Origin: Bacteroidota bacterium
GTDB taxonomy: Bacteria > Bacteroidota > Rhodothermia > Rhodothermales > Salinibacteraceae
DNA: 40,560 nt
NCBI GenBank assembly: GCA_009908415.1
Contig: JAAAPH010000002.1
Span: 1-40,560 of the forward strand
Reading direction: 5' to 3'
Both the position numbers and the translations under genes were made by a program. The notes beneath the pieces are model-generated. The model was not told the DNA's origin and searched no databases. It saw only the letters and a list, made by a program, of their open reading frames with translations. Of the stretch, positions 5,105 through 38,067 are shown piece after piece. Positions within the stretch are counted from its first letter, which is position 1; every line of letters begins with the position of its first letter.

Positions 5105-6382
5105 ATGACGGAACGCCGGAACGCGACGCGGGAACGCGCAGGCTTCGACGCCATCGCGGACGCCATCGCGGACATCCGGGCCGGACGGCTCGTGATTGTG
5201 GTAGACGATGAGGATCGCGAGAACGAGGGCGACTTCGTTGGCGCGGCGGAGCAGATCACACCCGAACTCGTCAACTTCATGATCACGGAGGGCCGCGGGC
5301 TCCTTTGCGCCGCCATCACGCCGGAGCGCGCCGAGGCGCTGGACCTCGACCTGATGGTCGAGTCGAACTCGGCCCTCTACAACACGCCGTTCACCGTCTC
5401 CGTCGACTACAAGCCGGGCACGACGACCGGCATCTCTGCACCCGACCGCGCCAAGACCATCCGCGCGCTCGCCGACCCGGACGCCAACGCCTTCGACTTC
5501 GCGCGGCCCGGTCACATCTTCCCGCTTCGCGCCCGGGCGGGCGGTGTACTGCGCCGAGCCGGCCACACCGAAGCCGCCGTCGACCTCGCACGGATGGCGG
5601 GGCTCCAGCCGGCGGGCGTGCTCGTCGAGATCATGAGTGACGACGGCACCATGGCCCGCGTGCCCGAGCTGCAGGCACTGGCCGAGCAGCTTGACTGCCG
5701 CATCATCACCATCAAGGACCTCATCGCGTACCGGATGCGCCACGAGCGGCTCATCGACCGGGCCGTGGCGGTCGACCTGCCGACCACGTACGGCACCTTC
5801 CGCCTCATCGGCTACAAAGAGCAGCTCACCGGCGACGTGCACCTCGCCCTCGTGAAAGGCACGTGGCGCGAGGATGAACCGGTGCTCGTGCGCGTCCACT
5901 CGCAGAGCGTCACCGGCGACGTCTTCGCCGCCAAGCGCGACGACAGCGGCGACCAACTCGTACAGGCCCTGCTCCAGATCGAGGAGGAAGGCCAGGGCGT
6001 CTTCCTGTACATGATGCAGGAAGGCCGCGGCATCGGGCTGCTCAACAAGCTGAAGGCGTACCAGCTGCAGGACGAGAAAGGCCTCGACACGGTGGAGGCC
6101 AACCGGGCGCTCGGGTTCGACATGGACCCGCGCGACTATGGCATCGGCTGCCAGATTCTGCGCGATCTCGGGATCCGCCAGCTGCGCCTGATGACGAACA
6201 ACCCGAAGAAGCGCATCGGCCTCTCCGGCTACGGGTTGGAGATCGTTGAGCGCGTGCCGCTGGAGGCCCCGCTCAACGAAGACAATGCCGACTACCTCAA
6301 GACGAAGCGCGACCGAATGGGGCATCTCATCCTCGACAACCTGGACGATGCCGACCGTGCAGCCCTCCGCAACCTGACCTGA
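5105..6382 (+). CDS. ribBA: bifunctional 3,4-dihydroxy-2-butanone-4-phosphate synthase / GTP cyclohydrolase II-like protein
   Basis: N-terminal RibB motif [13 protein letters not shown]-terminal RibA motifs [29 protein letters not shown] and LMTNNPKK. Zinc cysteines are absent (see findings). Confidence 0.93.
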
Positions 6383-6395
6383 CCCTCCTCCCCCC

Positions 6396-6575
6396 ATGAG
6401 CCAAAACGTCTTGCTCGCCATCTACGCCATCATCGGGACCATTGCCCTCTACCTCACCGTCCAGCGCGTACTCGGTGGGGCGTGGATGGGCGCACTCTTC
6501 TCCGGTGGTATTACGGCCTTTTGCGCCTACCGACTGTACACGATTCTAGATACACCCTCTTCCGATTCATCCTGA
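6396..6575 (+). CDS. small membrane protein (59 aa)
   Basis: ATG at 6396 to TGA at 6575: MSQNVLLAIYAIIGTIALYLTVQRVLGGAWMGALFSGGITAFCAYRLYTILDTPSSDSS. Two hydrophobic segments; short gap after ribBA; below the ORF-track length cut-off. Confidence 0.6.
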   Translation: MSQNVLLAIYAIIGTIALYLTVQRVLGGAWMGALFSGGITAFCAYRLYTILDTPSSDSS

Positions 6576-6594
6576 CGCCCACGGTGATCGCATC

Positions 6595-7134
6595 ATGCAC
6601 ATGACGCAGGCCGGCGTAACGCTTGAACTCCTCCAAGGTGACATCGCCGCGCAGGAGGACATGACCGCCGTCGTCAACGCGGCGAATGCGCAGCTGCGGA
6701 CGGGCGGCGGCGTGGCCGGTGCGCTTCACCGAGCGGCGGGCCCCGGGCTCGCACAGGAGGCACGGCCGATGGCGCCCATCACGCCGGGCGAAGCGGTAAT
6801 CACGGGCGGCCACGACCTGCCCAATGACTACGTCATTCACGCCCTCGGCCCCGTGTACGGCCGCGACGAGCCGGCCGACGAGCTCCTGCAGGCCTGCTAC
6901 GCAAACGCGCTCCACCTCGCCGAGGAGCATGCCCTAGACTCGGTCGCCTTTCCCGCCCTCTCAACCGGCGCGTTCGGCTATCCGGTGGAGGAGGCCGCCG
7001 CGATCGCGCTATCGACCGTGCTCGACGCGATGCGCGAGCTGGAATCCGTCCGGCATATCCGCTTCGTGCTCTACGACGCCGCCACCTTGCGCGTCCACGA
7101 AGAGGCCCTGAGACGATTGACCGAAAGCGGCTGA
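6595..7134 (+). CDS. macro domain protein (ADP-ribose binding / O-acetyl-ADP-ribose deacetylase-like)
   Basis: LLQGDIAAQEDMTAVVNAANAQLRTGGGVAGALHRAAGP ... FPALSTGAFGYPVEEAA. Confidence 0.9.
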   Translation: MHMTQAGVTLELLQGDIAAQEDMTAVVNAANAQLRTGGGVAGALHRAAGPGLAQEARPMAPITPGEAVITGGHDLPNDYVIHALGPVYGRDEPADELLQACYANALHLAEEHALDSVAFPALSTGAFGYPVEEAAAIALSTVLDAMRELESVRHIRFVLYDAATLRVHEEALRRLTESG

Positions 7135-8489: not shown

Positions 8490-11297
8490 TCAGTAACGGA
8501 GTCCGAGGAGCACGAAGAGATGCCGGCCGGGCAGCGTGCGAGCGACGCGCGTCAGCTCTGCGCCGGTTGTGTCGAGGCTCCAGTCGAAAGGGTTTGCTCG
8601 GTCGAGCACATTGACGACGTTAAGCTGCGCCTCCACGGTGACGCCACGGACGCGCTGTTGGGCGTGCAGCCCGAGATCCAACCGCGCGAACGGCGCCAGC
8701 ACCTGATCGCCCGGGCGGTCCAGGTCGATCCCGTCCAGCGCGTCGGCGTTGGCGGTCAGTGCCGTGTAGTCGTAGTAGGCGCGGCGCAGGGCCCACGGCC
8801 GTCTCCACATGCCCTGCCAGCTTCCGCGCGCATGCAGGCCGTCGACGACCTTCAGGTCGAGATTGGTCGAGAGGCGGACCGGTTGGTTCCATGGGGCGGG
8901 AACGAAGCGCTCGCCGAACCGCCCCGGATAGCGCCGTTCGGCGCGCCCTACCTCGACGGTCGCATCGCCGGAGATCCGTGCGCCTTCTCGCTGCACGCGC
9001 AGCGCGGCGCCGTACGCATACCCTTCGCCTGCGGCCATGAACTCGGCCTGCCGGTCGAAGGTGGTAAGGGCAGCGTCGCGCGCATCGGGTAGCGGCGTGG
9101 TGTGAACCAGTCGGGCGTAATCGATCTGCAGCGTGCGGGGGTTCCACTTGTAATGGGTCTCCAGCCGTACGGTCCACGCCGCGGAGGGCATGACGAGAAC
9201 GTCCGCCGCGGCGTGATAGGCCCGGGAGGGCGACAGCGATCCATCCACCGGCAGCCAGAATTGCATCGAGGGCACGACGGCCATCGGTCCGGCGCTGCTC
9301 ACCTCCGACTGCATTGCATACTGCCGATAGAGTCCTCCTGCAAGGCGCACAGCGAGCCCTCCAAGCGGGCTCGACGGGCGGTCGTAGCGGAAGGCAAGCC
9401 GCGGCTCGGCGTACATGGTCTGCCGGGCCGGCAGGTAGGTCAGCCGCGTGCCCGCTGTCACCGTGGTCCCCACGCCGAGTGACGCCTCGGCTTCCACGTG
9501 ACTGCCCACTTGCCACGTGTTCACGCGATAGTCCAGTGCACCGAGAAATCGGTTGCGGACCGCTACGTGCCCTTGCAGGTACTGCGGCGCGACGGCGGCG
9601 TGCAGGCGATACCGTGGCGACAGGCTGATCTCTGCCGCGACACGGCCGCCCCACTCGCGGAATCGGTTGCCCTCTGCCGTATGATCCAGCGCCTCGATGT
9701 CGGGCAGGCTTGCCAGGTCGCCCGGACGCGCCGGACGCGCTGCATGCAACAGGGAATCGCGCATGCCGAAGAGCGAGTGCGAGTCATGCTGGCTGCCGTA
9801 CAGTTGGGCGCTCCCCATCAGACGGGCGCCCGCCAGCCACTTGTAATGCGCCTGGACCACCGTGTTGTCCCACCCGGTGCGGCCTCGGGACGTAATCAGG
9901 CGCGGCTGATCGTGTCCAGCGAGAATGCTCGACGCGTCGGTACCCATCCGGTTGGTGCCGTGGTAGGCGGACACGTTCACGTAGTGGAAGGGCGAAAGCG
10001 CTTGCTGGACCGCACCGTGCACGTCCGCGAACTGCACGTGCGGCACCGGGTGCTGCGTGAGGAGCGGACCGGGTGAGGCGTCTGGATCGATCCACCACGC
10101 CGTCAGCGTTGGATCGGGGTGCGTCCAGCTCGCGAGCCGATGGTGAAGCGCCGGCGACTGATAGGCGTCCCAGACGCTCGTGCGCGCCGCAACCATGGCA
10201 TGCCCCGTTGTGGCGCCACGACGGGGCCAATTCGTTTGAGCGCGGCCGTTCACGCTTACGAGGTCAGCGCTGGCCGTAGCGTAGCGGCTGTTGGATCGCG
10301 ACAAGTCATGATCTGCCGTGATGACGCCCGCCGTGTAGCTCCCATGGCGGGCCGGGAAGCCGGCCTTGTGCGTGGTGATGCGACCGAGCGCCTCGGAACT
10401 GAACGCAGAGAGCAGCCCGCCGAGCGAGACCGGCTCCCGGACGGGCACCCCATCGAGCAGGGTCACGTGCTCGCCGGCGTCACTGCCCTGCACGTGAAGC
10501 TCGGCCCGCGGGCGGTTGAGCGATACCCCGACCTGCCGACTCATGCTGCGGATGACATCCGGCGTGCCGATGCTCGCCGCGTGCTTCAGGGCGCCGGGCG
10601 CATGTTCGCTCTGCCCGAGCGTCGACGACGGGAGGCGCTGCTGCAGTCCGTCGATGACGAGCGGCTCGGCGATGAGCGGTTTCGGCGTCAGCGATACACG
10701 CACCGACTGCCGGCCGGCCGGTGGGACCCATACGCTGTCTACCGCCGGCGCGTAGCCCACGTAGGTGATGACGAGCCGGTGGGGCCCTGCCAGCACGTCG
10801 GCAAAGTTGAACTGCCCGGCCTGGTTGGTCGCCATGCCCGTCGAGGCCTCGGCGAGCAGCACGTTCGCCTGCGGCAGCGGCTCGCCCGTGGCGGCATCGA
10901 CGACGGTCCCAACGATGCGGCCCACCGCAGCGGGCGCACGAAACGTTTCGACCAGCAGGTAGGTCCCGCTCGACGTCAGGAGGTAGTCGACACCGGTGCC
11001 CGCCAGGATACAACGCAGCAGCGCCTCGGCCGTGGCGTCGCGCCGCTGGCAGTACACGCTGCGGCCTCCGACCAGCTCATTCGAATAGGCGATGTCGGTA
11101 CCCGTTCGCCGGACAAACTGCTGGAGGGCCTCGTCAAGGGGCACATCGCGCAGGGCCATGGTATATCGCACCGCAGCGGCTCCTTCGTCGGCCCGTTGCG
11201 CCTGTGCGGGGACGGCGATCAGCCACAGCCCGACCGCCATGGCCCCGAGCACACGCAACGGCGTCCACGAAAAAGAGGGGACTAGCACATTCAACAT
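8490..11297 (-). CDS. TonB-dependent receptor with N-terminal STN (secretin/TonB short N-terminus) signalling domain and carboxypeptidase-regulatory-like domain
   Basis: Signal peptide; STN-like MALRDVPLDEALQQFVRRTGTDIAYSNELVGGRSV...LTSSGTYLL; GTVVDAATGEPLPQANVLLAEASTGMATNQAGQF; plug-like TPDVIRSMSRQVGVSLNRPRAELHVQGSDAGEHVTLLDGVPV. Confidence 0.9.
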   Translation of the reverse strand: MLNVLVPSFSWTPLRVLGAMAVGLWLIAVPAQAQRADEGAAAVRYTMALRDVPLDEALQQFVRRTGTDIAYSNELVGGRSVYCQRRDATAEALLRCILAGTGVDYLLTSSGTYLLVETFRAPAAVGRIVGTVVDAATGEPLPQANVLLAEASTGMATNQAGQFNFADVLAGPHRLVITYVGYAPAVDSVWVPPAGRQSVRVSLTPKPLIAEPLVIDGLQQRLPSSTLGQSEHAPGALKHAASIGTPDVIRSMSRQVGVSLNRPRAELHVQGSDAGEHVTLLDGVPVREPVSLGGLLSAFSSEALGRITTHKAGFPARHGSYTAGVITADHDLSRSNSRYATASADLVSVNGRAQTNWPRRGATTGHAMVAARTSVWDAYQSPALHHRLASWTHPDPTLTAWWIDPDASPGPLLTQHPVPHVQFADVHGAVQQALSPFHYVNVSAYHGTNRMGTDASSILAGHDQPRLITSRGRTGWDNTVVQAHYKWLAGARLMGSAQLYGSQHDSHSLFGMRDSLLHAARPARPGDLASLPDIEALDHTAEGNRFREWGGRVAAEISLSPRYRLHAAVAPQYLQGHVAVRNRFLGALDYRVNTWQVGSHVEAEASLGVGTTVTAGTRLTYLPARQTMYAEPRLAFRYDRPSSPLGGLAVRLAGGLYRQYAMQSEVSSAGPMAVVPSMQFWLPVDGSLSPSRAYHAAADVLVMPSAAWTVRLETHYKWNPRTLQIDYARLVHTTPLPDARDAALTTFDRQAEFMAAGEGYAYGAALRVQREGARISGDATVEVGRAERRYPGRFGERFVPAPWNQPVRLSTNLDLKVVDGLHARGSWQGMWRRPWALRRAYYDYTALTANADALDGIDLDRPGDQVLAPFARLDLGLHAQQRVRGVTVEAQLNVVNVLDRANPFDWSLDTTGAELTRVARTLPGRHLFVLLGLRY

Positions 11298-11372
11298 CGG
11301 GGCGTTGGGCGTCGAGAGGCAGGAAACACAAAGGCGCGGTCCACCCTGCGAGGCGCCTGCAGCAGGTCGGCG

Positions 11373-12437
11373 CTATGGGACGAGGGCGTAGCCGTCGTTC
11401 ATCTGCTGGTAACGCAGGCCCTGGATGACGGCAATGTCGCGCAGAATATCTTCGAGGCGTACGGTGCGACCGTAATGCAGTGTCATGGTTTCCGTCTGCG
11501 CAGCGGGCACGCCGAGGCGGATGGCTGCTCCGAACTGGATTTCGAGCTCGTGGAGAATGGTCGGCAAGGCGGCGTTCCGTATGGCAAACCCGCCTTCTCG
11601 CCACGCGGCCAGGTACTTCGGATCGAGCGGCGCCGGCGCCGTGGGAGCGGCGTCCTGTCCGGCAAGGCGGCTCTGCTGGCCCGCCTCATCAAGGATGACG
11701 CCCGATGCCACACGGTCGGCAGCCGCTCGCGTAATGAATCGCACACGGCCTGAGCGAAGGGCGACGTCGGTAACGGGCGTCTCCCCCTGCAAGCGCGCCC
11801 GCACGTTGAACGTGGTGCCCAGCACCTCCACGGCCGCGTTGGACGTCTCGACGCGGAAGGGGCGCGCCGCCGGCTGCACCGAGAAGAACGCCTCGCCGCG
11901 CAGCGTCACCTGGCGCGCAGCAGCGTCCAGGCCGGGCAGCGACGAAAAGCCGCGCGCGTAGGTCAGCGTCGTCGCCCCGTTCAGCTCGGCCGTCGATCCG
12001 TCTGGCAGCGTAACGGTGGCCTGTTCGCCCGCGGCCGTCTGGACTGTAACGGGCTGGCGCCACCATAGCACCGCGCCGAGCGCCACGCAGAGCACCACGG
12101 CGGCTGCCACCCCGAGCCGGCGCGTCCAGGAGCGACGCGCCCGTGCGCGTGCCGACGGGCGCGGGGGCCGGTCGGACGAGCGTCGTGCCGGCGGGGGCTC
12201 CGCCGGGCCGATGTCGTCTGTCGATTCAGGCGACTCAGCCGGGGCATCCAGGCCGTCAGCCAGGTCGTCCCATGCCGCATCGACAGAGAACGCTGCATCG
12301 GTGGCCGTGTCAGCCCGGCGGAGGAGCCGCCAGAGGGCGGCATAGTCCTGTCGTGCGTCCTCACTCTCGGCGAGGTCGCTCAGCTCGTCGGGCAGGCCAT
12401 GCGCGTCCGAATGGGGAGGCCGTCCATCCTTGTCCAT
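11373..12437 (-). CDS. FecR family anti-sigma factor / sensor
   Basis: Single TM (RRLGVAAAVVLCVALGAVLWW), FecR core VTLPDGSTAELNGATTLTYARGF...VTLRGEAFFSVQPAARPFRVETSNAAVEVLGTTFNVRA, and a C-terminal STN-like segment. Confidence 0.92.
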   Translation of the reverse strand: MDKDGRPPHSDAHGLPDELSDLAESEDARQDYAALWRLLRRADTATDAAFSVDAAWDDLADGLDAPAESPESTDDIGPAEPPPARRSSDRPPRPSARARARRSWTRRLGVAAAVVLCVALGAVLWWRQPVTVQTAAGEQATVTLPDGSTAELNGATTLTYARGFSSLPGLDAAARQVTLRGEAFFSVQPAARPFRVETSNAAVEVLGTTFNVRARLQGETPVTDVALRSGRVRFITRAAADRVASGVILDEAGQQSRLAGQDAAPTAPAPLDPKYLAAWREGGFAIRNAALPTILHELEIQFGAAIRLGVPAAQTETMTLHYGRTVRLEDILRDIAVIQGLRYQQMNDGYALVP

Positions 12438-12528
12438 GAGGCATCCAGGCAGGCGTCGTGCGGGGAAAAGCGAGGGGGTAAATCGGTCGGGGCGTTTCGC
12501 TCCAATGATCAGGAGAGATACGGTCGCA

Positions 12529-13230
12529 TCAAGTCAGCAGGTCCGGGCGGTGCGTCCGCAACCGCTCGCGCAACCGCTCCATGGCCCGTACGATATGATT
12601 GTTGACCGTGTGCGGCGAGATGTTCATAAGGTCCGCAATCGCTTCGTGGCTCAGCCCGTCGATGCGCCGCAGGGTCAGCGCCTCGCGCTGGCGGGGGGGG
12701 AGATCACTGATCCAGCGATCGAGCAGGTCGCGCAGTTGCTCCGCGTCGAGGGCGTCATCCGGCGCGGGCGGCGCGGTGTCGAAGTCGCCGGGCTGGAGCA
12801 GTTCCTCGTTGCTCCGCCGGACGCGCTCGTCGCGCAGCGTGTTGTACACGCGATGACGCGCCATCTGAAAGATGTACCCTCGGAGCGAATCCACCTCGGA
12901 GAGGGTTTCGCGGGCGGCCCAGAGCTTTGCAAACGTGTCCTGCGTGATGTCGTACGCAACGGCATCGGACGATACCATACCGCGCACGAACCGGAAGACG
13001 CGCTTGGAAAGGCGACGAAACACCTGTTCGAACGCGTCTCGGTCGGACCGGCCCAGTCGCTGCCGCAGCCGCCCAAGAGACGCCTCCGGGTGGGGCGAGG
13101 TGGAGACCACATCGTCCGGCTCGTCCGGGTCGGTGCGCTCGTCCGGGTCGGTACGTTCGACAGACCCTTCAGCCATGAACGCTGGCATCGTCGAATGGGC
13201 GGGAATGGCGAGCGGGGTACACTCACGCAT
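12529..13230 (-). CDS. ECF-type RNA polymerase sigma factor (FecI-like)
   Basis: ITQDTFAKLWAARETLSEVDSLRGYIFQMARHRVYNTLRDERVRR (region 2) and LPPRQREALTLRRIDGLSHEAIADLMNISPHTVNNHIVRAMERLRERL (region 4). ATG at 13230 or 13188. Confidence 0.93.
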   Translation of the reverse strand: MRECTPLAIPAHSTMPAFMAEGSVERTDPDERTDPDEPDDVVSTSPHPEASLGRLRQRLGRSDRDAFEQVFRRLSKRVFRFVRGMVSSDAVAYDITQDTFAKLWAARETLSEVDSLRGYIFQMARHRVYNTLRDERVRRSNEELLQPGDFDTAPPAPDDALDAEQLRDLLDRWISDLPPRQREALTLRRIDGLSHEAIADLMNISPHTVNNHIVRAMERLRERLRTHRPDLLT

Positions 13231-13273
13231 GGCAGGCGTATCTCTATGCAGGGGGCGAGATCCCGTTCCGCAC

Positions 13274-13318
13274 CGCGCGCCGAGCCGCTCCCGATGAACG
13301 GGAGCCGACCCGGCGCGT
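13274..13318. promoter_or_regulatory. intergenic stem-loop between the fasciclin gene and the sigma gene
   Basis: Perfect 7-bp stem GCTCCCG-ATGAA-CGGGAGC (13287-13305) flanked by further partially complementary GC-rich arms (GCGCGCCG / CGGCGCG); no T-tract. Confidence 0.55.
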
Positions 13319-13360
13319 GGCACAGGGAACATACCCAACACGGGGTGTCCGCCCCGCCGA

Positions 13361-15193
13361 TCAGTTGCTCGGCGGGATGAGTACCGTGTCGATGCCATGG
13401 ATCACACCATTCGACGCCTCCACGTCCGGTGCGACGACGCTGGCATCGTCCGCGTTCGGGTTGATGGTCACCTCCGACCCACTGCGCACGACGGTCACGT
13501 CAGCCCCTTCCAGCGTAGGAAGCGCGGTTTCCGACGTCGGCACATCCGCAGCGAAGAAGACGTCATCGAGCACGTGATACTGGAGGATATCCGCTGCATT
13601 GCTCGGAATCTCGCTGCTATCGATTGTGCCATTGTCATTCGCATCGAGGGCAGCCAGGAACGCTGCATTCGTCGGGGCAAAGACCGTGATGCCGTCCTCC
13701 CCGTCCGGGCCCGGGCCGCTCAGCGCGTCGGCCAGGCCGGCTTCGCCGACGAGGTCCGCCAGGATGCTGAAGTCCGAGGTCACCGTCGCCCGCTCCACGA
13801 CCGTGCGGTTGGTGAGTAGCACATCATCGATGAGGTGCGCCACCCCGTTGGAGGCTGCGACATCGGGGGTCGTCACCTGGGCGCCATCGACGAAGACGTT
13901 GCCGTCGCTGATGGAGATTGTGATGTCGTCGCCCTGGACGGTGGTAAAGGTGTCCCCGTCGCTCAGATCGCCCGAGAAGACGGCCGCGCCCTGCACGACG
14001 TGAAAGCCCAACACCTCTTCCAGCACCATCGGATTATCGAGGAGGTACTCTACATCGTACGGCGCGAAGGACGCGTCTTCGGGCGCGAACACCGTAAAGG
14101 TGGCGGCGTCATCGGCCAGCGTGGCGTCGAGGCCTACCGCGCCCAACGCTGCATTCAGCGTGCTGAGCGACGACGTCTCGCTCACGAGGCCAGCCAGCGA
14201 AGGCGGCTGGAGGGTCGGCGGCACGAGGACGCCGTCAATCTGGTGGATGATGCCATTGCTGGCCCGCTGGTCCAGGTTCTCCAGGTCGAGCGTGGCCTGC
14301 CCACCGTTCAACGAGATGGAGCCGTCTGCCTCTTCGCGAAACGTGATCTCTTCGCCTTGATTCGTCGCCACGCTTACCTCGCCCCCATTGTCGGCCAGCA
14401 GTTGGAGCAGAGCGGCGGAGTCGGTGATGCCGTCGAGCGTGTGATACTGCAGAATGGCCTGAACCTCCGTGTCGCTGAAGCCGCTCAGGTCGGCCGCCCC
14501 AAACGCCGCATTGTTGGGCGCAAACGTCGTCCACTCGTTGTTCGGGTCGTTGAACGCGTCGGCGAGGCCGGCTTGGTCGATCGCGTTGTAGAGTGACTCG
14601 GTGGCGTTCGTCACCAGCAGTCGCTCGCCCGCGGTGCGGTTGGTAAGCAAGACGTCGTCGATGATGTGGACGACGCCGTTGGAGGCTTCGACGTCGGCGG
14701 TCGTCACCTGGGCGCCATTGACGAAAACGCTGCCGTCGCGAATGGAGACCGTGATGTCGTCGCCCTGGACGGTGGTAAAGGTGTCCCCGTCACTCAGGTC
14801 GCCTGCCAGTGCGGCCGCCCCCTGCACGACGTGAAACTGGAGCACTTCGCTGAGCAGATCGGTATTGCCGACCAGGAAGTCCACGTCGTAGGCGTCGAAC
14901 GCGGCATTGGCCGGGGCAAAGACGGTGAACGTGGCGTTTTCGTCGGCCAGCGTGGCGTCGAGGCCCGCGGCTTCCAAGGCAGCGACCAGCGTGGTGAGGT
15001 TGTCTTGGTCGGCGGCCAGTTCAGCGATGGAGGCGGGATCCGTCGTGGGAGGAGTCACCATACCATCGTCATCATCGCCGTCACAGCCTGCGGTGACGAG
15101 GGCCATCGTAAGCAGAACCGCAAGCAGTCCGGTCCACCGTCCGACGCGAGCAGATACCGAGGAGTTGGAAAATATATTACGGAGAGGGTCCAT
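13361..15193 (-). CDS. fasciclin (FAS1)-domain lipoprotein, four FAS1 repeats
   Basis: Lipobox-like VTAGCDGDDDD; four repeats of FTVFAPANAAFDAYD...LQFHVV...IIDDVLL type. Start ATG at 15193 (MDPLRNIF). Confidence 0.92.
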   Translation of the reverse strand: MDPLRNIFSNSSVSARVGRWTGLLAVLLTMALVTAGCDGDDDDGMVTPPTTDPASIAELAADQDNLTTLVAALEAAGLDATLADENATFTVFAPANAAFDAYDVDFLVGNTDLLSEVLQFHVVQGAAALAGDLSDGDTFTTVQGDDITVSIRDGSVFVNGAQVTTADVEASNGVVHIIDDVLLTNRTAGERLLVTNATESLYNAIDQAGLADAFNDPNNEWTTFAPNNAAFGAADLSGFSDTEVQAILQYHTLDGITDSAALLQLLADNGGEVSVATNQGEEITFREEADGSISLNGGQATLDLENLDQRASNGIIHQIDGVLVPPTLQPPSLAGLVSETSSLSTLNAALGAVGLDATLADDAATFTVFAPEDASFAPYDVEYLLDNPMVLEEVLGFHVVQGAAVFSGDLSDGDTFTTVQGDDITISISDGNVFVDGAQVTTPDVAASNGVAHLIDDVLLTNRTVVERATVTSDFSILADLVGEAGLADALSGPGPDGEDGITVFAPTNAAFLAALDANDNGTIDSSEIPSNAADILQYHVLDDVFFAADVPTSETALPTLEGADVTVVRSGSEVTINPNADDASVVAPDVEASNGVIHGIDTVLIPPSN

Positions 15194-15270
15194 GGGAGCA
15201 TGGGGTTGATTCAGGGAAGGTGTATGAAGAGACCGCATTGGCGTTCGGTCTCAGCGCATGTGCACGTTGT

Positions 15271-15327
15271 CGACACGAGCGCCCCCCTACGACAACCAGT
15301 GCCCGCATGAAACAAACCCGTAACGCC
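15271..15327 (-). promoter_or_regulatory. conserved upstream box of fasciclin gene 1 (shared with gene 2)
   Basis: CGACACGAGCGCCCCCCTACGACAACCAGTGCCCGCATGAAACAAACCCGTAACGCC; 49/57 identical by hand alignment to 18628-18684 and at nearly the same distance from the ATG. Confidence 0.6.
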
Positions 15328-15421
15328 CAGCGCTCCTCTGCGCCGTGTCGACGCCCTTGTTGCCGCTTTACGCCCGTCTCACGGGGACAAGGAAGCACAC
15401 ATATTCCCCGATTCTCTTCTG

Positions 15422-15520
15422 GAAGGCGTCCTTGGAAAGGCGACGAGACACCCGCTCGAACGCGTCTTGGTCGGACCGGCACAGTCGCTGGTGCAAGAGG
15501 TCAAGTGCCCCCTCAGGCTG
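15422..15520 (-). pseudogene. truncated remnant of an ECF sigma factor gene
   Basis: Minus-strand PEGALDLLHQRLCRSDQDAFERVSRRLSKDAF aligns with PEASLGRLRQRLGRSDRDAFEQVFRRLSKRVF of the sigma gene at 12529-13230; DNA also clearly similar (13004-13065 vs 15431-15490). Confidence 0.75.
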
Positions 15521-15580
15521 GAGGCGGACAACCTCCCCCCTCTCCCGTTTGGCTCGCCAAGGCAGGGCCGCTCGGAGGGC

Positions 15581-15620
15581 CAGTCAGGCGCAGGAGAATC
15601 CAGTCAGGCGCAGGAGAATA
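15581..15620. repeat. 20-bp perfect tandem repeat (two units, last base differs)
   Basis: CAGTCAGGCGCAGGAGAATC CAGTCAGGCGCAGGAGAATA. Confidence 0.85.
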
Positions 15621-15706
15621 CATCACCGAGCGGTGAGCCGGCGTACGCCGAGGCCGATCTGCGGCAATAGCGCCCTGCTACCAGGCCACCAACCCCGTTC
15701 AACGGC

Positions 15707-15747
15707 GCGTGCCGAGCCCCCGTGATGAGCAGGGCGGCTCGGCACGC
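15707..15747. promoter_or_regulatory. perfect 12-bp inverted repeat downstream of fasciclin gene 2
   Basis: GCGTGCCGAGCC - 17 nt - GGCTCGGCACGC; no T-tract; resembles the GCGCGCCGAGCC arm next to the other fasciclin gene. Confidence 0.75.
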
Positions 15748-15810
15748 GGCACGGAGGATCGATGACAGCGCGGCGATTCGACGTAGGCGCATGCCGCCGA
15801 GTTGGTCCAA

Positions 15811-18549
15811 TCAATGTGGCAGCGTAAGCACGGTGTTGATGCCGTGAATCACTCCGTTCGACACCTCCCTATCGGGAGCGATGACGGCCGCATGATCCGT
15901 GTCCGGGTTGACCGCAACATGGGACCCGTTGCGTACGACGGTCACGTGAGCCCCTTGCAGGGTGGGAAGAGCCGTCTTGGTGGTCGGCACCTCCGCGGCA
16001 AAGAAGACGTCATCGAGCACGTGGTACTGGAGGATGTCTCCGACGTTACTTGGGATCTCATGGTTATCGATCAGGCCGTTGTGGTTGGCGTCGAGCGCAC
16101 CCAGGAAGGCCTCATTGGTCGGTGCGAACACGGTGATTCCGTCTTTCCCGTCCGGGCCCGGCCCGCTTAGCACCTCAGCCAGATGGGCGTGGCCCACGAG
16201 GTCGACCAGGATGCTGAAGGCCTCCGTGACCGTTGCCCGTTCCACGGCGGTGCGGTTGGTCAAGAGTACGTCGTCAACGACGTGTACCACGCCGTTCGAC
16301 GCTTCGATATCGGCGGTCTTCACCTGGGCCCCTTCGACAAAGATGTCGCCGTTATGGATCGCGACTTCGATTTCATCACCCTGGACGGTAGTGAATGTGT
16401 CTCCATCGCTCAGGTCCACGGCGAATACGGCCGCCCCCTGCACCACGTGGTAGCCCAGCACCTCTTCAAGCAGCATCGGGTTGTCGAGCAAGTAGTCCAC
16501 GTCGTACGGAGCGAAGGAGGCATTCGCCGGGGCGAAAACGGTGAACGTTTCGTTCTCGTCACCCAGTGTGACGTCAAGCCCCACCGCACCGAGCGCCGTC
16601 GCTAGCGTGGAGAAGTCGCTGCTCTCCGATACGATCTCGGTAATCGACGGTTGCTGCAGGCTTGGCGGCAGCAAGAGGCCATCGATCACGTGCAGGATCC
16701 CATTGGAGGCGGCGTAGTCGAGGTTGTCGATGTCAAGGGTCGCCTGCCCGTCGTTGAACACGACCTGGTCGCCGTCCAGGGCAATCGTTAGCTCCTCGCC
16801 CTGCAGCGTCGGCACGCTCACCGCATCGCCGCCGCCCTCCGCGCTCTTCATCTGCGCGCTCTTTATCTTCGTGCCGCCTCCGGTGCCGCCGAGCAGCTCC
16901 AGCAGCGCCTCGGAATCGATCACCTCCTCGGCAATCACGTGGTACTTCAGAATCTGCTCCACCTCGTGGCTCGTGAAGCCGCTCAGGTCCGCTCCCGCAA
17001 ACGTGTCGTTGTTCGGGCCGAACACCGTCCAGCCGTGCGCGTCGGCAAACGCGCTGGCCAGCCCGAAGTCGGACACCGCGCCGAAGAGGCGCTCGGTCTC
17101 CGCCACCAACCGCGCCGCGCCGGCCAGGTCCTGGTTGCCCAGCAGCGTCCGGTCGAGCACGTGCACCACGCCGTTGTCCGCCTCGATGTCGGTCTGGATC
17201 ACCTGTGAGCCCTCGATGAAGATGTCGCCGCCGTCGACGGTGACGGTGAGCTCATCGCCAGCAAGCGTGGTCACGGTATTGTCGCCCTCCGCCAGATCGC
17301 CGGCAAAGAGCGCCTGGTCGGGAACCACGTGGTAGCCCAGCACATCGGTGAGCGCCATGTTGTCGGCGAGCAGGTGGTCTGTGTTGATCGGCGTAAAGCC
17401 GTCATTATTGGGCGCAAAGACGGTCAGCGAGGCGTCCTCGTCAGCCAGCGCACTGGTCAGGCCCGCCGCATCCACGGCTGTCCCCAGCGTCGAGAAGTCG
17501 TCGTTCTCAGCAACGATGTCAGCGATGGTGGGCTCGGGCATTGCGCCCATGCTCGACGGCATGAGGATGCCGTCGATGACGTGGAGAATGCCGTTGCTGG
17601 CGCGCTGGTCCACCTGGTCCAGGTCGAGCGTCGCCTGCGGTCCCTCGTCCAGATCGTTGTTGAAGATGATTGTCGAGGCGTCCTGCTGCGTGATGATCAA
17701 CTCCTCCCCCTGCAGCGTCGGGATCGTCACCGCACCGCCGTTTTCATCCAAAAGCTCTAGCAGCGCCTCGGAATCGATCACCTCCTCGGCAATCACGTGG
17801 TACTTCAGAATCTGCTCGATCTCGGGGGCGGTGAAGTCGCCCAATTTGGCATTCACGAACGCCTCATTATGAGGCACAAACGTGGTCCACGTGTTGGTGG
17901 AGTCGTTGAACGCCTCGGTCAAGCCAGCAGCGTCCACGGCGTTGACAAGCGACGCGGTAGCCTTGGTGGCCTGCAACCGCTCGCCCGCGGTGCGGTTGCT
18001 AAGGAGCACATCATCGATGACGTGGACGACGCCGTTCAACGCCTCCACATCGGCCGTCGTCACCTGGGCCCCCTCGACGAAGACGTTGCCGTCGCGGAGC
18101 GAGACGGTGATCTCGTCGCCCTGGACGGTGGTGAACGTGTCGCCATTACTCAGGTCACGCGATCCGACCGCCTCGCCTTGCACGACGTGAAAACCGAGCA
18201 CGTCGCTGAGCAGATCGGCGTTGCTGGTCAGGAAGTCGACGTCGTAGGCGTCAAATGCGGCATCCGACGGGGCGAAGACCGTAAACGTGCTCGACTGATC
18301 ATCCAGCGTGCCATCCAAGCCGGCGACGCCAAGCGCCGTGGTCAAGGTGGTAAGGTCATCTTGATCACCCGCTAGGGCCGTAATGGTCGGCGCGGATGTC
18401 GGCGGGGTCACGATGCCCCCTCCTCCGTCGGTACTGTCACAACCGGCGAGGATGAAGGTCAGCGCAAAGAGGCCGGCAAGCAGAGTGACGCACCGACTGG
18501 GAACGATAGGTAAGAGCGAATTAGACGGGAGACGGCGAAAGAGATTCAT
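15811..18549 (-). CDS. fasciclin (FAS1)-domain lipoprotein, six FAS1 repeats
   Basis: Lipobox LAGCDSTDGGGG; six FAS1 repeats (TFTVFAPSDAAFDAYD ... VIDDVLL etc.), paralogous to 13361-15193. Confidence 0.92.
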   Translation of the reverse strand: MNLFRRLPSNSLLPIVPSRCVTLLAGLFALTFILAGCDSTDGGGGIVTPPTSAPTITALAGDQDDLTTLTTALGVAGLDGTLDDQSSTFTVFAPSDAAFDAYDVDFLTSNADLLSDVLGFHVVQGEAVGSRDLSNGDTFTTVQGDEITVSLRDGNVFVEGAQVTTADVEALNGVVHVIDDVLLSNRTAGERLQATKATASLVNAVDAAGLTEAFNDSTNTWTTFVPHNEAFVNAKLGDFTAPEIEQILKYHVIAEEVIDSEALLELLDENGGAVTIPTLQGEELIITQQDASTIIFNNDLDEGPQATLDLDQVDQRASNGILHVIDGILMPSSMGAMPEPTIADIVAENDDFSTLGTAVDAAGLTSALADEDASLTVFAPNNDGFTPINTDHLLADNMALTDVLGYHVVPDQALFAGDLAEGDNTVTTLAGDELTVTVDGGDIFIEGSQVIQTDIEADNGVVHVLDRTLLGNQDLAGAARLVAETERLFGAVSDFGLASAFADAHGWTVFGPNNDTFAGADLSGFTSHEVEQILKYHVIAEEVIDSEALLELLGGTGGGTKIKSAQMKSAEGGGDAVSVPTLQGEELTIALDGDQVVFNDGQATLDIDNLDYAASNGILHVIDGLLLPPSLQQPSITEIVSESSDFSTLATALGAVGLDVTLGDENETFTVFAPANASFAPYDVDYLLDNPMLLEEVLGYHVVQGAAVFAVDLSDGDTFTTVQGDEIEVAIHNGDIFVEGAQVKTADIEASNGVVHVVDDVLLTNRTAVERATVTEAFSILVDLVGHAHLAEVLSGPGPDGKDGITVFAPTNEAFLGALDANHNGLIDNHEIPSNVGDILQYHVLDDVFFAAEVPTTKTALPTLQGAHVTVVRNGSHVAVNPDTDHAAVIAPDREVSNGVIHGINTVLTLPH
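16901..16959 (-). repeat. 59-bp exact repeat inside fasciclin gene 2 (copy A; copy B at 17759-17817)
   Basis: AGCAGCGCCTCGGAATCGATCACCTCCTCGGCAATCACGTGGTACTTCAGAATCTGCTC in both places. Confidence 0.85.
17759..17817 (-). repeat. 59-bp exact repeat inside fasciclin gene 2 (copy B)
   Basis: Identical to 16901-16959; encodes EQILKYHVIAEEVIDSEALL. Confidence 0.85.
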
Positions 18550-18627
18550 GGAAGGGGAGACATTGGTTCAGGGAGGGGTCGGTGTGGAACACCCGGTCGG
18601 TTGGGTGTTTTCGATCAGGCATTCATG

Positions 18628-18684
18628 CGACACGAGCGCCCCCCTACAACGACCAGCACCCCAATGCAACAAATCCGTAACGCC
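18628..18684 (-). promoter_or_regulatory. conserved upstream box of fasciclin gene 2
   Basis: CGACACGAGCGCCCCCCTACAACGACCAGCACCCCAATGCAACAAATCCGTAACGCC; see 15271-15327. Confidence 0.6.
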
Positions 18685-23784: not shown

Positions 23785-24804
23785 TCAGAACCCGATGTCG
23801 ATCGCGACCCGGTTCACACCGTCGAAGATGTCGTAGGTGGTGTAGGCGTAGTCGGCGCCCAGTTGCAGGTCCCCCACGCTTACGTTCAGGCCGCCGCCGA
23901 GGCTCAAGCCTTCGGCGAAGTCACCGCGAGGCACCGAGTATCCGGCCCGGAGCGAGAAGGTGTCCATGAACGTGTACTCACCCCCCACGCGGACCTGCTC
24001 GGAAAAGTCACGCGGCGTCTGGCCGTCTACCGTCACGAGAAAGGAGTGGTTTTCCGAGAACGCCGCCTGCGAGTTGAGCAGGTTGATCACGTCGGCCGAC
24101 AGGCCAATCGTGAGCGTCAGCGGAAGCTCAAAGCTCTCCTCTTCGTAGGTCACTTCCGAGGAGAAGTTGCGCGCGCTGAACGCGAACGTCACGCCGCGGA
24201 ATCCGGTGTCGTAGATGACGCCGAAGTCGAAGGCCGGTGTCGACACCGTGTTGGACTGCGTGGCGCCGGCACGCGTCATCACGCTTTCCCCCAGATCCTG
24301 GCGGACAAACTTGGCCCCACCGCCAATCGAGACGCGGTCGGTGATGGGAATCGCGTAGCCGATGCCAACAGCGTATGCGGAGGGTCCGAAGGTCCCGGTT
24401 TCTTCGAAGCCCTGGTCGTTGTCTGCGCGGATGGTGCCTTCCAGGTCGCCGTAGTCGACGAATGTCGCCGAGACGCCAAACACGCCATATTTCCCATCGC
24501 TGGGTGCAAAGGCGAGGCTCCCCTGGTTGTAGTTGATGTCGGCAATCCACTGCATGACGCCCGCCCCGAAATGGCCGGTCGTGTTCATGCGGGCCATGCC
24601 GGCCGGGTTGTAGAACATAGACGCCGATCCGAGCTCAAAGGTGGTCACGGCATTGCCAACCGCTGCCGCACGCGGGTTGGTGGAGGCGCTGAGGAACTTC
24701 ATCCCAGTCTGTGCCGCCTTCTGGTTGTCTTGGGCTGCTGCATCAGGGGGCTGGAGCACCAGCAGCATGCAGAGCACGGTAAGGAATGGTAAAAGAGATC
24801 TCAT
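23785..24804 (-). CDS. PorV/PorQ family outer-membrane protein
   Basis: GMKFLSASTNPRAAAVGNAVTTFELGSASMFYNPAGMARM...; beta-barrel pattern ending GVNRVAIDIGF. Confidence 0.88.
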   Translation of the reverse strand: MRSLLPFLTVLCMLLVLQPPDAAAQDNQKAAQTGMKFLSASTNPRAAAVGNAVTTFELGSASMFYNPAGMARMNTTGHFGAGVMQWIADINYNQGSLAFAPSDGKYGVFGVSATFVDYGDLEGTIRADNDQGFEETGTFGPSAYAVGIGYAIPITDRVSIGGGAKFVRQDLGESVMTRAGATQSNTVSTPAFDFGVIYDTGFRGVTFAFSARNFSSEVTYEEESFELPLTLTIGLSADVINLLNSQAAFSENHSFLVTVDGQTPRDFSEQVRVGGEYTFMDTFSLRAGYSVPRGDFAEGLSLGGGLNVSVGDLQLGADYAYTTYDIFDGVNRVAIDIGF

Positions 24805-24854
24805 GACGTATCGGCTGGGGAATGAATGCGAAAGTACGTTGGGGCGGGGGCGCG

Positions 24855-24881
24855 CCGAGGATGCCGGGAGGCATCGCTCGG
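24855..24881. promoter_or_regulatory. stem-loop between the FN3-protein and PorV-like genes
   Basis: CCGAG-GATGCC-GGGA-GGCATC-G-CTCGG: 11 bp with one bulged G. Confidence 0.65.
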
Positions 24882-24915
24882 CGGTCCGCCGGATGTCACC
24901 GTTGCTGTGCATGGG

Positions 24916-27093
24916 CTATCGGATGATGACGAACTTCTTCGTGCTCTGATCGCCCGTTTCCAGATCCTCGACGACGGCAATGTAGACGCCGCTCACCACG
25001 AGTTGGCGATCGTCGGTGGCGAGGTTCCAGAACTCGTCACCGCTACCGTCATCGTGGCGGATCGTTTGAACGAGCTCGCCGAGCTCGGTGTAGATCCGGA
25101 TGACGGAGTTGCCCGGGATATCGAGGAAGCCCAGCTTCTCGTCGTCGTCGGGGAAGCGAATCTCCGGGTCGGAGCCGAGGTTGTACGGGTTCGGCACGAT
25201 CTTGAAGTCCGAGACCGCGTCGCCCGGGGGACGGGCCAGCGAGGCCGGATTGTAGGTTTGCGTCCAGTAGCGGCTGCTCCGGAGCGGCTTGCCCGTCGGT
25301 GTCAGGCCCGTGCCGTCATTGTTGACATCGCCAACGGACAGGATGTAGTAGTAATAATTGATCCCGCGCTGCGCGGTGTTGTCCGTGAACGACCGGGCGC
25401 TGCCGTCAAGCTCAGCGATGCGCTCGTACTGATACGCGCCGAAGTTCACGCCCCCCTCAGACTGGTTCACCGATCGCCAGTCGCCGCGCACGTCGTTCGC
25501 GGAGCGATAGATCTCGAAGCCGCCGGCCGGGTCGCTGTCTGCGGTCCATTCGAGGCTGATCTCCCCCACGCCGGACGTGACAGAGAAGCTCGTTGGCGGC
25601 GGGGGCGGCAGCGGGATGTTGTAACCCGACTCATAGTTGGCGATCGCCCGCTCGAACGTAGCAAACAGCGAGTCCCGTGTAGCCGTTACGGCCCAGTCGT
25701 TCTTGCCCTGTTGCACGTCGGGGTTGATGCGCTCGCCGCGCGCGTTGATGTAATCGATTTCGATGTTGGCCTCCGGGTCGAAGTCACTGGCCTTGAAGGC
25801 GCGGCCTACCTCAACCTGCTCCTGCTGATTGAGCCCGTCGGCGGCCATGGCAATCACAACCGTGGCACTTTCACCAATGTCGAGGTCGTACGGCCCGTAG
25901 CTGAAGGCCGAGGTCCATCCACCGGGCTTCTCCAGCATCGGCGAGCCGTCGGCCGTCGTGAAGTCGCCGTCCTGGTCGACCACATCCGCGTGATGCGGGA
26001 ACATGTGCGGGCCGTCGTTCTCGCGGGCCTGCGACATGAACCGGTACTCGTCCTGCATCTGCGTCTCATTGAAGGGGCTGTTGGTCGACGTAAGCGGATC
26101 ATCCGCGTCGATGTAGCCCGTCATGGACGGTTGGAAGGGCGGGACGGGGTCGCCATCCGTATCGTCGGCCGTGCTCGGCGTCGCGTCCAGGGTCACCGTG
26201 CCGACCGTCACACCGAGCGTGAGCTCGCCTTCATCCTGACCCTCAGGGATGAAGAAGGGGCCCGAGTCGCGAGCCGGTCCGCCGAGGGGGTCGATGTCGA
26301 AGCCGGGCGAGTTGCCGATCCACGTGTACGCGGCCCTGAAGTCGACGTCATAGTCGTCCATGCCGTCGCCGACGATGTCATTCATGACGTTGGCGCCCCA
26401 CTCCTGGCCCGGGATGGACGCGCGGTCGGACATCGTCCAGCGGCGTTGGAAGTGGAGGTACACGTCTTCGAGCGGCTGGTCCAGCTCGGCCTCACCGTCG
26501 CTATCGACGTTCCCGGTGTTAGTCAGGGTGTACTCGTGGATGTGGTAGTTGCCATGATGCTCCTGGCCCCAGCCCAGGATCCGCTTCTCCAGGGTCACCC
26601 CCAGGAGCGTGTTCACCTGCGCGCGGATGATGCGATGCGCCGGAATGTTGGGATCCACTTGGTCGACGTCCGCCGCGCGATCGAGCGTCTCCAGGCCGTC
26701 CACCGTGACCGACGGATCCTCGAACTGCTGGATGGTTTCGAACTCCTGCGGGAGGAACACGCCAGCGCCCGTGACACGGGGGCCTACGTGCACCACACGG
26801 GCCGGATACTCGCGGCCGTTTTCGTCGGTGACGTTCTCGGCGCCGATCCAGAGCGCGCCGGCGCGGAAGTAGCCGCGCTGGTAGATGCCGGGCCAATCGA
26901 AGTCGTTGCCGCTGGCCCAGAACTCCTGGTTGCCACCGGATTCATTGTACACCTGGTGAAGTTCGCCCACGTCCATCGACTTCTGTTCGAACTGGGCGGT
27001 AGCGTCTTGAATGCCAATCCCCAGAAGCAACAGCACGGCGACGAAAACGCCGGTGGCGTGCTGTGCGAGGGGACGAATTGCAAAGCGTTTCAT
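24916..27093 (-). CDS. secreted protein with fibronectin type III-like domain and C-terminal sorting-like domain
   Basis: Signal peptide MKRFAIRPLAQHATGVFVAVLLLLGIGIQDATAQ; FN3-like PTSFSVTSGVGEISLEWTADSDPAGGFEIYRS; C-terminal IRIYTELGELVQTIRHDDGSG...VSGVYIAVVEDLETGDQSTKKFVIIR. Confidence 0.85.
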   Translation of the reverse strand: MKRFAIRPLAQHATGVFVAVLLLLGIGIQDATAQFEQKSMDVGELHQVYNESGGNQEFWASGNDFDWPGIYQRGYFRAGALWIGAENVTDENGREYPARVVHVGPRVTGAGVFLPQEFETIQQFEDPSVTVDGLETLDRAADVDQVDPNIPAHRIIRAQVNTLLGVTLEKRILGWGQEHHGNYHIHEYTLTNTGNVDSDGEAELDQPLEDVYLHFQRRWTMSDRASIPGQEWGANVMNDIVGDGMDDYDVDFRAAYTWIGNSPGFDIDPLGGPARDSGPFFIPEGQDEGELTLGVTVGTVTLDATPSTADDTDGDPVPPFQPSMTGYIDADDPLTSTNSPFNETQMQDEYRFMSQARENDGPHMFPHHADVVDQDGDFTTADGSPMLEKPGGWTSAFSYGPYDLDIGESATVVIAMAADGLNQQEQVEVGRAFKASDFDPEANIEIDYINARGERINPDVQQGKNDWAVTATRDSLFATFERAIANYESGYNIPLPPPPPTSFSVTSGVGEISLEWTADSDPAGGFEIYRSANDVRGDWRSVNQSEGGVNFGAYQYERIAELDGSARSFTDNTAQRGINYYYYILSVGDVNNDGTGLTPTGKPLRSSRYWTQTYNPASLARPPGDAVSDFKIVPNPYNLGSDPEIRFPDDDEKLGFLDIPGNSVIRIYTELGELVQTIRHDDGSGDEFWNLATDDRQLVVSGVYIAVVEDLETGDQSTKKFVIIR

Positions 27094-27153
27094 TGTACGT
27101 AAGGGGGTAGCCATGAGAAATACGGGTCTCGGTGTCACGAGGGCGTTCGGAGC

Positions 27154-27181
27154 GGATCCCCGCGTTCACGTGCGGGGATCC
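27154..27181. promoter_or_regulatory. perfect 10-bp inverted repeat between the TonB receptor and FN3-protein genes
   Basis: GGATCCCCGC-GTTCACGT-GCGGGGATCC. Confidence 0.8.
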
Positions 27182-27195
27182 CTCCTCACGCTGCA

Positions 27196-30100
27196 TTAGA
27201 AGGAGAGGCGCAAGCCCAGATTGACGCTCCGGGGGAACAGGAAGCGGAAGGAGCTTGCGTTCGGCGGATTGATGTGGTCCCCATCGAGGTCGCCCGGCTT
27301 ATCGTCGCCGTAGATGGGATTGCCGTTGTCATCCTTCGGCACGTAGTTCTCCACCCAGCTCTCGCTCTCGTTTTCACCCTCGACCACTTCGCGGGGCAGG
27401 TGCAACGAGTTCATGTAGTCTCTAAAGTCGTTCGGACCGACAAAGGCCGAGCGGTTGAAGTTCTTGATGTTGAAGACGTTGTCGATGTCCGCGAAGAACT
27501 GCGCATCAAACCCTTGAACGTTGAAGTTCTTGCTGAGGCGCATGTCCACCATCCGGAATGCCTTCCACTGGACGTTGTCCTCCACGCCTTGAAGCGGCGT
27601 GCGGTTGGTCCACGTCTGGTAGTCGCCGGCCTGCCACTGCCCCAGCAGGTTGACGCGCCAGTCGCCCAGCACCTGAATGCCACCCACCTCGGGCCCGAAG
27701 TCATTGGGCGTCAGGAAGGTCAGGCTGAGGCGCCCGAAGGGACGGGGGAGCGCTTTGTCCTGGAAGTTCACGGACGTCCGCTCGAACTCGGCCTGCTGCA
27801 CCTGATTCTCAAAGAACTGGCCCAAGCCAAAGTCGCCCTGCGAGCGCACATCGAACGTGTAGTTCACGAAGCCCTGGAACCACTCGCCGACGTTCTTGAA
27901 GAGGCTGAACTCGACGCCACGGATGTCCTCGTAGTTCTCCGCCCGGTTCGTGGAGTAGTTGATCAGGCCATCGCGGCTCTGGAAGCCGACCCAGCGCGGC
28001 TGGTTCTGGACGTCCTTGTAGTAACCCGCGACGCGGACCAGGTAGGTGTCGAAGAAGCTCTGCTCGTAGCCCACCTCGTACGCAATGGTTTTGGGACGCG
28101 GGACGTCCGGATTGGCCAACTGCGTGACCTCGTTGGTCCGCTGCTGACGCTCGACCATGTAGAGGAAGTTGGGCGACAGATCCTGATAGAAGTGCCCGTA
28201 GTTGAAGTACAGCTTGCTGCCTTCCCGAACGGGGAACGACACGCCGAGCCGCGGGCTCAGGTTAATTTGCGCCTCGGCGTCGCGCCGCTCCACGAGATCG
28301 TCGAAGTTGTCGGCGTTCTTGCCGAGGATGGCGTCATCAAACGGGTCGACGACGATGCGGTCCGTGTTGGCATTGAAGTAATCCAGCCGCAGGCCCACGT
28401 TGGCGATCATGCCACGGAATTCCAGCTTATCCTGGGCGTACACGGCGCCGTAGATCGGGTTGGCCTGCCAGGCGGCCCGCACGTCACTCGGCTGCAGGAG
28501 GACGTCTTGGAATTGATAATCCACGTCCTGGTCCTCGATCTCAAACTCGAACCCGAACTGCGCCTCGTTGTACTGGCCCAGCTGGCTGGTCAGGTCGAAG
28601 TTGACGCTCCAGGTCGACACGTCGCTCGTGTCGCGCATCTGGCTGTGCTGCTCGGCAATCCGCAAGGACGCCACGCGGGTTTCCACCAGTGGGTCGCTCG
28701 CAAACTGGAAGCCGATCGGGCCTTCCGTTACACCGAGCGGCTCGAAGTTAAGATCGGGAAACTGGCTCGCCACGTCGTCCCCAAAGGTGCGGACGATCGT
28801 CGGATCGCGCTCCTCGGCCGGGAACGTGCGGTACTGCGTTTCATACCGCTGAATCTGAAACTCGTAGAACGTGTTGTCGCTGAGCGTGTGGTTCAGCTTG
28901 GCCGACAACAAGTTATGCCGGATGTCGCTGCGAGACCACTTGCCCGTGCCAAAGATGCCATCGCCGCCATCGCCGAAGCCGGGATTGTAAAAGGCGTTCC
29001 GCCCAAACCCGAACACCCGGTCGCGATCGCCGTCGCGCCGAATCTGCGTGATGCCGTCGCGGCTTTCGAGGTTCGAGCCCTGCTCCAACCCGCGCATGCC
29101 CTGCAACGTCAGCTTCATGGTGGGCGCGATGTCCGAGGTGACCTTCAGACGCGCGTTGTAGGCGTCGTATCCGTCGCGGGAGAGCGGCACGATGTACTGG
29201 TTCTGCTCCTGGCGGTAGGAGGCCATGAACCGGAGGTCGCCCAGGAAGTCGCTGACCACCGGCACCGGGCCGCCGATCGAGCCATCCACGACGTAGTCCG
29301 GGCTCTGGATGGAGAGATCCCGGCGATGGCGGTACCGGAAGAGCTCCTGCAGGTCGTCCGCCAGCATGCTTACCGCCTCCGGCGGCGCATCGCTACCGAG
29401 CTGCTCCTGAGCGAGCTGCGTGTACCCACGGAAGGTGGGGTACTGGTTCTGCGTGAAGCCGTCCCATGCGCCGTTGTCCGTTCCTTCGAACGCCACGTCG
29501 GAGTCTAGGTAGGGCCGCATCCAGTACGACTCGGGGGCATTGGCGGCCGGACCGAAGTGCTTCGACGAAGCGGGGGCGTAGCGAAGCAGCACGTCCGCCT
29601 CATAGCTGTCACGCGGGCCTTCCTTCGTGACGACGTTGACGACCCCCGACCGGATGTCGCCGTACTCGGCGTTGAAACCGCCCGACTGGACCTGCACTTC
29701 CTCGACCGAGGTGTAGCTGAAGCCCGTGTAGGGGTTATTGCTGCGGCCGCTGCTTGTGCTTGCGCCATCAATGCGCACGTCGGCCTCACCGGCTTCGCTG
29801 CCGCGAATCGAGAGGCCCTGCACACCGGCCTGCAAGCCGACCGCCGAAGAGAGGTCGGTGACCGGAAGGTTCTCCAGGTCGTCCGCGCTGATATCAACGC
29901 GGCTGGCCGAGAGGTCCTCTTTTACGACGCGGTCTTCAGCCGTCACCGTGACCCCTTCGAGCCCTACCGTTTCTTCGGGCAGCTCAAAGTTCACGGTGGT
30001 GGTTAAGTTGATGCTGACCTGCACGCCCTGGACGGTCTGCGCCTCAAACCCCACAAACGTGGCGCGCAGATCGTACGTGCCGGGCGAGACGTTCAGGATG

Positions 30101-35187: not shown

Positions 35188-35286
35188 AGGCAGGGAACCG
35201 AGACAAAACGAGGGCGAGCGGCGCCACGTCACAGCGCCGACGCATAACCTAACGGCTTCACGCCGCGATGTCCAGATGCCGGCCGA

Positions 35287-37956: not shown

Positions 37957-38067
37957 AATCCTGGAGGTCGAATGTGGGCGTGCGGGCGGTTCGGAAGGAC
38001 GATTGAGCGCGGCTCGTGGAGATCCTTTGATGCCACGTATTCGTGGTTGGCTCGAGACGCCTTCGGC

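Follow-up and report, generated by a model that had tools for sequence, protein, structure and literature searches.

Cell-surface signalling of the FecI type is known chiefly for iron carriers and, in Bacteroidota, for glycans, and receptor-lipoprotein pairs of the SusCD or BtuB-BtuG type are often under the control of extracytoplasmic function (ECF) sigma factors and FecR-type proteins. We describe a locus in which such a signalling cassette is encoded behind two lipoproteins built of fasciclin (FAS1) domains. It occupies positions 8490 to 18684, on the minus strand, of a 40,560-nt stretch at the start of contig JAAAPH010000002.1 (assembly GCA_009908415.1, from a salt-loving member of the Salinibacteraceae), hereafter the window. 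Linkage and promoter comparisons suggest, with a probability of about three in four, that the locus forms an operon for cell-surface signalling of the FecI/FecR/FecA type and that it would mainly serve to produce FAS1 surface lipoproteins, with CHRD lipoproteins sometimes taking the place of FAS1 as the predicted output.

The locus shares with the FecI-FecR-FecA system (reviewed in PMC9249621) the joint encoding of three components: an ECF sigma factor, an anti-sigma factor of the FecR type that crosses the membrane once, and a TonB-dependent receptor whose N-terminus bears an STN domain. A promoter motif hints that autoregulation may be a further common trait. Unlike that system, the window operon begins with FAS1 genes, its predicted targets include FAS1 and CHRD lipoproteins, and the window locus lacks iron or citrate transport genes. 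A second relative is SigK-RskA of mycobacteria, in which an ECF sigma factor controls the secreted proteins MPT70 and MPT83 (PMC7509140), homologues of which carry a fasciclin annotation (PMC9861118). Control of FAS1 proteins by an ECF sigma factor would be common to both cases, with a regulon experimentally shown there and predicted here. However, the anti-sigma factor of the window matches FecR and not RskA in Pfam, unlike that of SigK-RskA (ECF19), and SigK-RskA has small MPT70/MPT83 proteins and no outer-membrane receptor, whereas a receptor is present in the window. Finally, a receptor gene beside a surface lipoprotein gene is a feature held in common with SusCD and BtuB-BtuG of Bacteroidota (PDB 8blw and 8bmx), although the window lipoproteins are of the FAS1 type and not SusD or BtuG; SusD was absent from the Pfam matches of both, which comprised Fasciclin only, plus one sub-domain-level DUF4097 match.

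What would be new is that receptor-based surface signalling is coupled to lipoproteins of the FAS1/CHRD kind and that its regulon can be predicted, FecI-type machinery being tied to FAS1 surface proteins through conserved linkage and a promoter signature. A literature search that left subscription journals largely uncovered found no paper combining fasciclin, TonB-dependent receptor and FecR, and nothing relevant on fasciclin and Salinibacter or on fasciclin and SusC in Bacteroidetes. The promoter signature makes the sigma regulon predictable and checkable in the cultured Salinibacter altiplanensis and Longimonas halophila, and the association draws attention to the function of multi-FAS1 lipoproteins in bacteria.

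Genes of the signalling cassette and its FAS1 lipoproteins

The preliminary description of this DNA had listed, in transcription order on the minus strand, a six-FAS1 lipoprotein, a four-FAS1 lipoprotein, an ECF sigma factor, a FecR-like anti-sigma factor with a transmembrane segment and a receptor with an STN domain, and all five genes are borne out by domain matches. The first (15811 to 18549), located 3' of a promoter element described below, encodes 912 residues with six Fasciclin stretches (Pfam E=2e-152) and a lipobox, LAGC, followed by acidic DSTD. The second (13361 to 15238) encodes 625 residues with four Fasciclin domains (E=2.6e-114) and the lipobox TAGC followed by acidic DGDDDD. 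The combination of lipobox and acidic residues in both sequences suggests export to the cell surface. In the six-FAS1 protein, domains 1, 2, 5 and 6 are the counterparts of the four domains of the shorter protein, with identities of 75% (first with first), 72% (third with fifth) and 75% (fourth with sixth).

The sigma factor gene (Pfam Sigma70_r2, E=5e-12; Sigma70_r4_2, E=1e-17) probably extends from 12529 to 13191. The listed open reading frame runs to 13398, and because this start falls within the preceding gene, the actual one is probably near 13191; related sigma factors are about 200 residues long. Next to it, the FecR-type anti-sigma factor (11373 to 12437; Pfam FecR, E=5e-17, with a weak FecR_C match) has a single hydrophobic transmembrane segment, read from its sequence at about residues 105-126. 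The TonB-dependent receptor (8490 to 11297) comprises a signal peptide, an STN domain, a CarboxypepD_reg domain, a plug and a barrel. Its STN domain (residues 45-117; 10947 to 11165) falls short of the Pfam cut-off in the window receptor (E=0.13), and Pfam STN is matched by 7 of 11 aligned family members (best E=1.7e-5); the domain has two invariant cysteines. The preliminary description had also proposed a structure prediction of the receptor barrel. In an AlphaFold2 model, residues 45-117 adopt an STN-like beta-alpha-beta fold with predicted local distance difference test (pLDDT) values mostly of 75-88, in a receptor whose mean pLDDT is 62, and Foldseek matched the model to PfeA, FpvA and BtuB-BtuG with TM-scores of only 0.28-0.36 by query length. 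Genes and model together contain the structural features that define FecI/FecR/FecA signalling, namely sigma regions 2 and 4, a FecR with one transmembrane segment and an STN receptor.

Conserved linkage and a promoter motif shared by sigma and FAS1 genes

The preliminary description had proposed a search of related genomes for the FAS1-sigma association, on whose conservation its claim depended, and the association recurs in two gene orders. The order FAS1-ECF-FecR-receptor is found in eight Salinibacteraceae-type genomes from six genera, counting the window and including Salinibacter altiplanensis AN15 and Longimonas halophila KCTC 42399. In one of these (G005) the contig stops within FecR and the receptor is found on a separate contig; at L045 and L046, a CHRD-type protein gene comes first and the FAS1 gene second. 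The order ECF-FecR-receptor-FAS1 was found at eight loci in Balneolales (among them L199 of Balneolaceae) and other Rhodothermales. Linked loci were reached via receptor- or FAS1-based searches, so that counting them does not show how common the linkage is. On a quick receptor tree, in other parts of which long branches were flagged, seven FAS1-first loci and L053 form one clade of eight (Shimodaira-Hasegawa-like approximate likelihood ratio test, 99), and the FAS1-last loci fall elsewhere. In the genome of L053 (G017), the FAS1 gene lies about 400 kb from the receptor trio, yet it has kept the promoter element, the core of which also precedes the sigma gene. ECF genes near FAS1 at L279, L281 and L283 were not counted, as the ECF is a different one and a TPR-like protein gene and ruvB intervene.

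At seven of the eight FAS1-last loci, a bipartite motif, TAGTCAY-N14-GKGTW, precedes both the sigma and the FAS1 gene, with a gap of 13 nt at the FAS1 gene of L278. We scored FAS1 promoters with a matrix trained on sigma-gene promoters alone, from which FAS1 promoters were excluded, against 243 background genes. Six of the seven scored linked FAS1 genes outrank the entire background, and 1 of 17 unlinked FAS1 genes (in L284) scores high. The eighth linked locus, L180, has the motif by inspection; its FAS1 gene was missed by the gene caller and so went unscored. In the window clade, a diverged form, TTAC..GTTTCATT..TGGKTRT-N13..15-GTGTC, precedes the FAS1-first operon. Its register was set by hand, a two-block search having settled on a GTTTCAT box that lies upstream of the -35/-10 pair, and in subsequent leave-one-out scoring all ten FAS1/CHRD promoters of the window family beat every one of 836 background genes. 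In the window's genome the diverged pattern, which was derived from these loci, occurs only at both FAS1 promoters.

Exact motif searches were extended to 45 genomes with reversed-pattern controls. Matches were placed at about 20 sigma genes of this kind, at eight linked FAS1 genes and at eight FAS1 genes away from the locus (in G130, G148, G218, G073, G033, G066, G065 and G032). In seven of these off-locus cases the FAS1 gene and the trio (or the sigma gene of the trio) are on separate contigs, and in G130 the trio was not located. If each genome has 6-12 FAS1 genes and a site may fall anywhere in the 165 nt 5' of each, chance would be expected to yield roughly 0.01-0.03 off-locus FAS1 placements. 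In G116, the only two matches are at the sigma gene and a FAS1 gene. Further motif-bearing genes encode extracellular proteins of the CHRD and DUF4397 types (the latter, in L336 and L340, read from sequence). The window's genome also holds a second ECF-FecR-receptor trio (L058, contig C138, 6958 to 11278), for which there are only two exact motif sites, one before the sigma gene of the trio and the other before a gene for an LTD lipoprotein (5352 to 6827). The repeats of this lipoprotein resemble the CHRD-type repeats of L045; Pfam gives LTD alone, below cut-off.

Several observations weigh against the proposed signalling operon with FAS1 output. The linked FAS1 gene of L175 has no motif, whether by inspection or by matrix score, and a neighbouring FAS1 gene is missing from the sister trios L051 and L055 and from many of the trios collected at order level. 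The motif is short and its genome totals do not exceed the reversed-pattern control, so most matches are due to chance and only their placement is informative. This placement was noticed after inspection of the loci, although the sigma-promoter training set nonetheless excluded FAS1 promoters. In the window clade the motif has diverged, and a matrix from the sigma promoters of non-FAS sister trios gives p values of 0.01-0.06 at the better sites and no signal at others. Finally, the receptor plug is modelled with low confidence. On balance, the earlier proposal that the sigma factor drives FAS1 expression appears well supported by the linkage in two orders, the promoter motif common to sigma and FAS1 genes and its occurrence at off-contig FAS1 genes, and the motif hints that the sigma factor may also control the genes of its own system.

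Proposed working and possible roles of the FAS1 proteins

By analogy with FecI/FecR/FecA, a ligand at the receptor barrel would act through the STN domain on the periplasmic part of FecR, which would then free the ECF sigma factor. Judging from motif co-occurrence, the latter may recognise the bipartite promoter 5' of FAS1. The anatomy of the operon in the window clade suggests that the FAS1 promoter could also serve the sigma factor, FecR and receptor genes by read-through past a hairpin, which would result in abundant FAS1, a smaller amount of the regulators and positive feedback. Probably exposed at the outer membrane, the FAS1 proteins would be the effector, either as a receptor partner or as an adhesin or matrix protein. 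The preliminary description had gone further and envisaged the sensing of a surface or matrix ligand and a role in adhesion rather than nutrition; neither claim follows.

Under the same regulation, the FAS1 lipoprotein could be a ligand-capturing partner of the receptor, like SusD or BtuG, in the substrate-induced uptake of a nutrient or cofactor, to which we give somewhat less than an even chance. There are three arrangements in which FAS1 genes adjoin genes for TonB-dependent receptors, one of them represented by ten loci of Salinibacteraceae-type genomes where a receptor gene is directly followed by a two-FAS1 gene without sigma factor or FecR, and where no motif was evident by eye 5' of the receptor. 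Since FAS1 also pairs with receptors in the absence of a sigma factor and FecR, adhesion is no more likely than a role as receptor partner. Uptake is also consistent with the position of the receptor model near BtuB-BtuG complexes and siderophore receptors in Foldseek, and with the ability of FAS1 domains to bind small hydrophobic ligands, as in AstaP (PMC10147662), PDB 8c18 being among the structures matched. It is harder to reconcile with motif-bearing FAS1 genes that are distant from any trio, and with the best solved relatives of the multi-FAS1 proteins, TGFBIp and periostin, which are matrix proteins.

These relatives, together with the presence of four to six FAS1 repeats, point instead to adhesins or matrix components, with the receptor sensing a surface, matrix or neighbour signal as originally proposed. 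The CHRD and DUF4397 extracellular proteins, co-regulated by motif, would fit such a role, as this accessory set looks structural and not transport-related. However, the receptor has the fold of a nutrient transporter, and we consider adhesion slightly less likely than uptake. It is also conceivable, if rather unlikely, that in a class of such systems in Rhodothermota and Balneolota the STN receptor has as its outer-membrane partner the very FAS1 (or CHRD) lipoproteins whose expression is regulated. The receptor would then sense the FAS1 coat around it, either its state or its ligand, and adjust coat production by positive feedback.

A response to light or singlet oxygen, with FAS1 proteins binding carotenoids, seems improbable. 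Exact sigma-motif sites do precede a phytoene desaturase-like (crtI-like) gene in G065 (contig C135, L318/L393) and a photolyase-like gene in G066 (contig C82, L337/L379), both identified from sequence, and the FAS1 genes mpk70 and mpk83 of Mycobacterium kansasii are light-induced together with phrB and crtI (PMC9861118). However, related genomes have not kept the motif at their orthologues of these genes, and a photo-oxidative regulon was rejected on these grounds. Separately, three related genomes (L379, L380 and L381) have a gene with a single FAS1 domain at about 1 kb on the upstream side of a photolyase-like gene. A merely coincidental neighbourhood or hitch-hiking, with FAS1 expressed independently, is very improbable: several sister trios without FAS1 do adjoin other genes, such as hydantoinase genes, but two gene orders in distant families, a common promoter motif and the presence of this motif at FAS1 genes away from the locus all argue against it.

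Duplicated promoter element, hairpins and neighbouring genes

Within the window, the proposed signalling operon carries three features that are absent from the preliminary description. The first is a 57-nt element found 5' of both FAS1 genes, in two minus-strand copies that are 86% identical. Copy 1 (18628 to 18684) reads TTAC..GTTGCATT..TGGTCGT-N15-GTGTC and beats all 836 background genes by leave-one-out score; copy 2 (15271 to 15327) reads TTAC..GTTTCATG..TGGTTGT-N15-GTGTC and was scored in the same way. The second is a decayed fragment of the 5' part of a sigma gene, on the minus strand between both FAS1 genes (15421 to 15526; 80% identity over 106 nt, E=4e-23; tblastn E=1e-8). This relic indicates that the arrangement arose by duplication, in which, as read from the sequence, a promoter-FAS1-sigma unit would have been copied and one sigma copy would have decayed, leaving two FAS1 genes with matching promoters.

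The third feature is a hairpin 3' of each FAS1 gene. Hairpins are predicted in all eight folded gaps downstream of FAS1 genes, of which two are in the window and six belong to relatives, with z values between -2.0 and -4.5. In the window, both are on the minus strand: one, without a U tract, lies between the stop of the four-FAS1 gene and the sigma gene (13270 to 13318; z=-4.3 for 13245-13366), and the other 3' of the six-FAS1 gene (15706 to 15748; z=-2.0 for 15690-15815). Because L045 alone among the eight gaps has a clear U tract, attenuator or 3'-end stabiliser is a better label for the window hairpins than terminator.

Elsewhere in the window, a receptor with a CarboxypepD_reg domain, a 740-residue protein with a very weak match to CHU_C (type IX secretion) and a weakly PorV/FadL-like protein are encoded in a row at 23785 to 30357. 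Two adjacent sulfatase genes (36433 to 39495), beside which a Sortilin/BNR-type protein is encoded (32026 to 35232), possibly form a sulfated-glycan locus. Among the other genomes searched, G181 contains nine identical copies of TAGTCATATTTGAAATTACATGGGTA on contigs C9, C13, C14, C17 and C18, probably a dispersed repeat.

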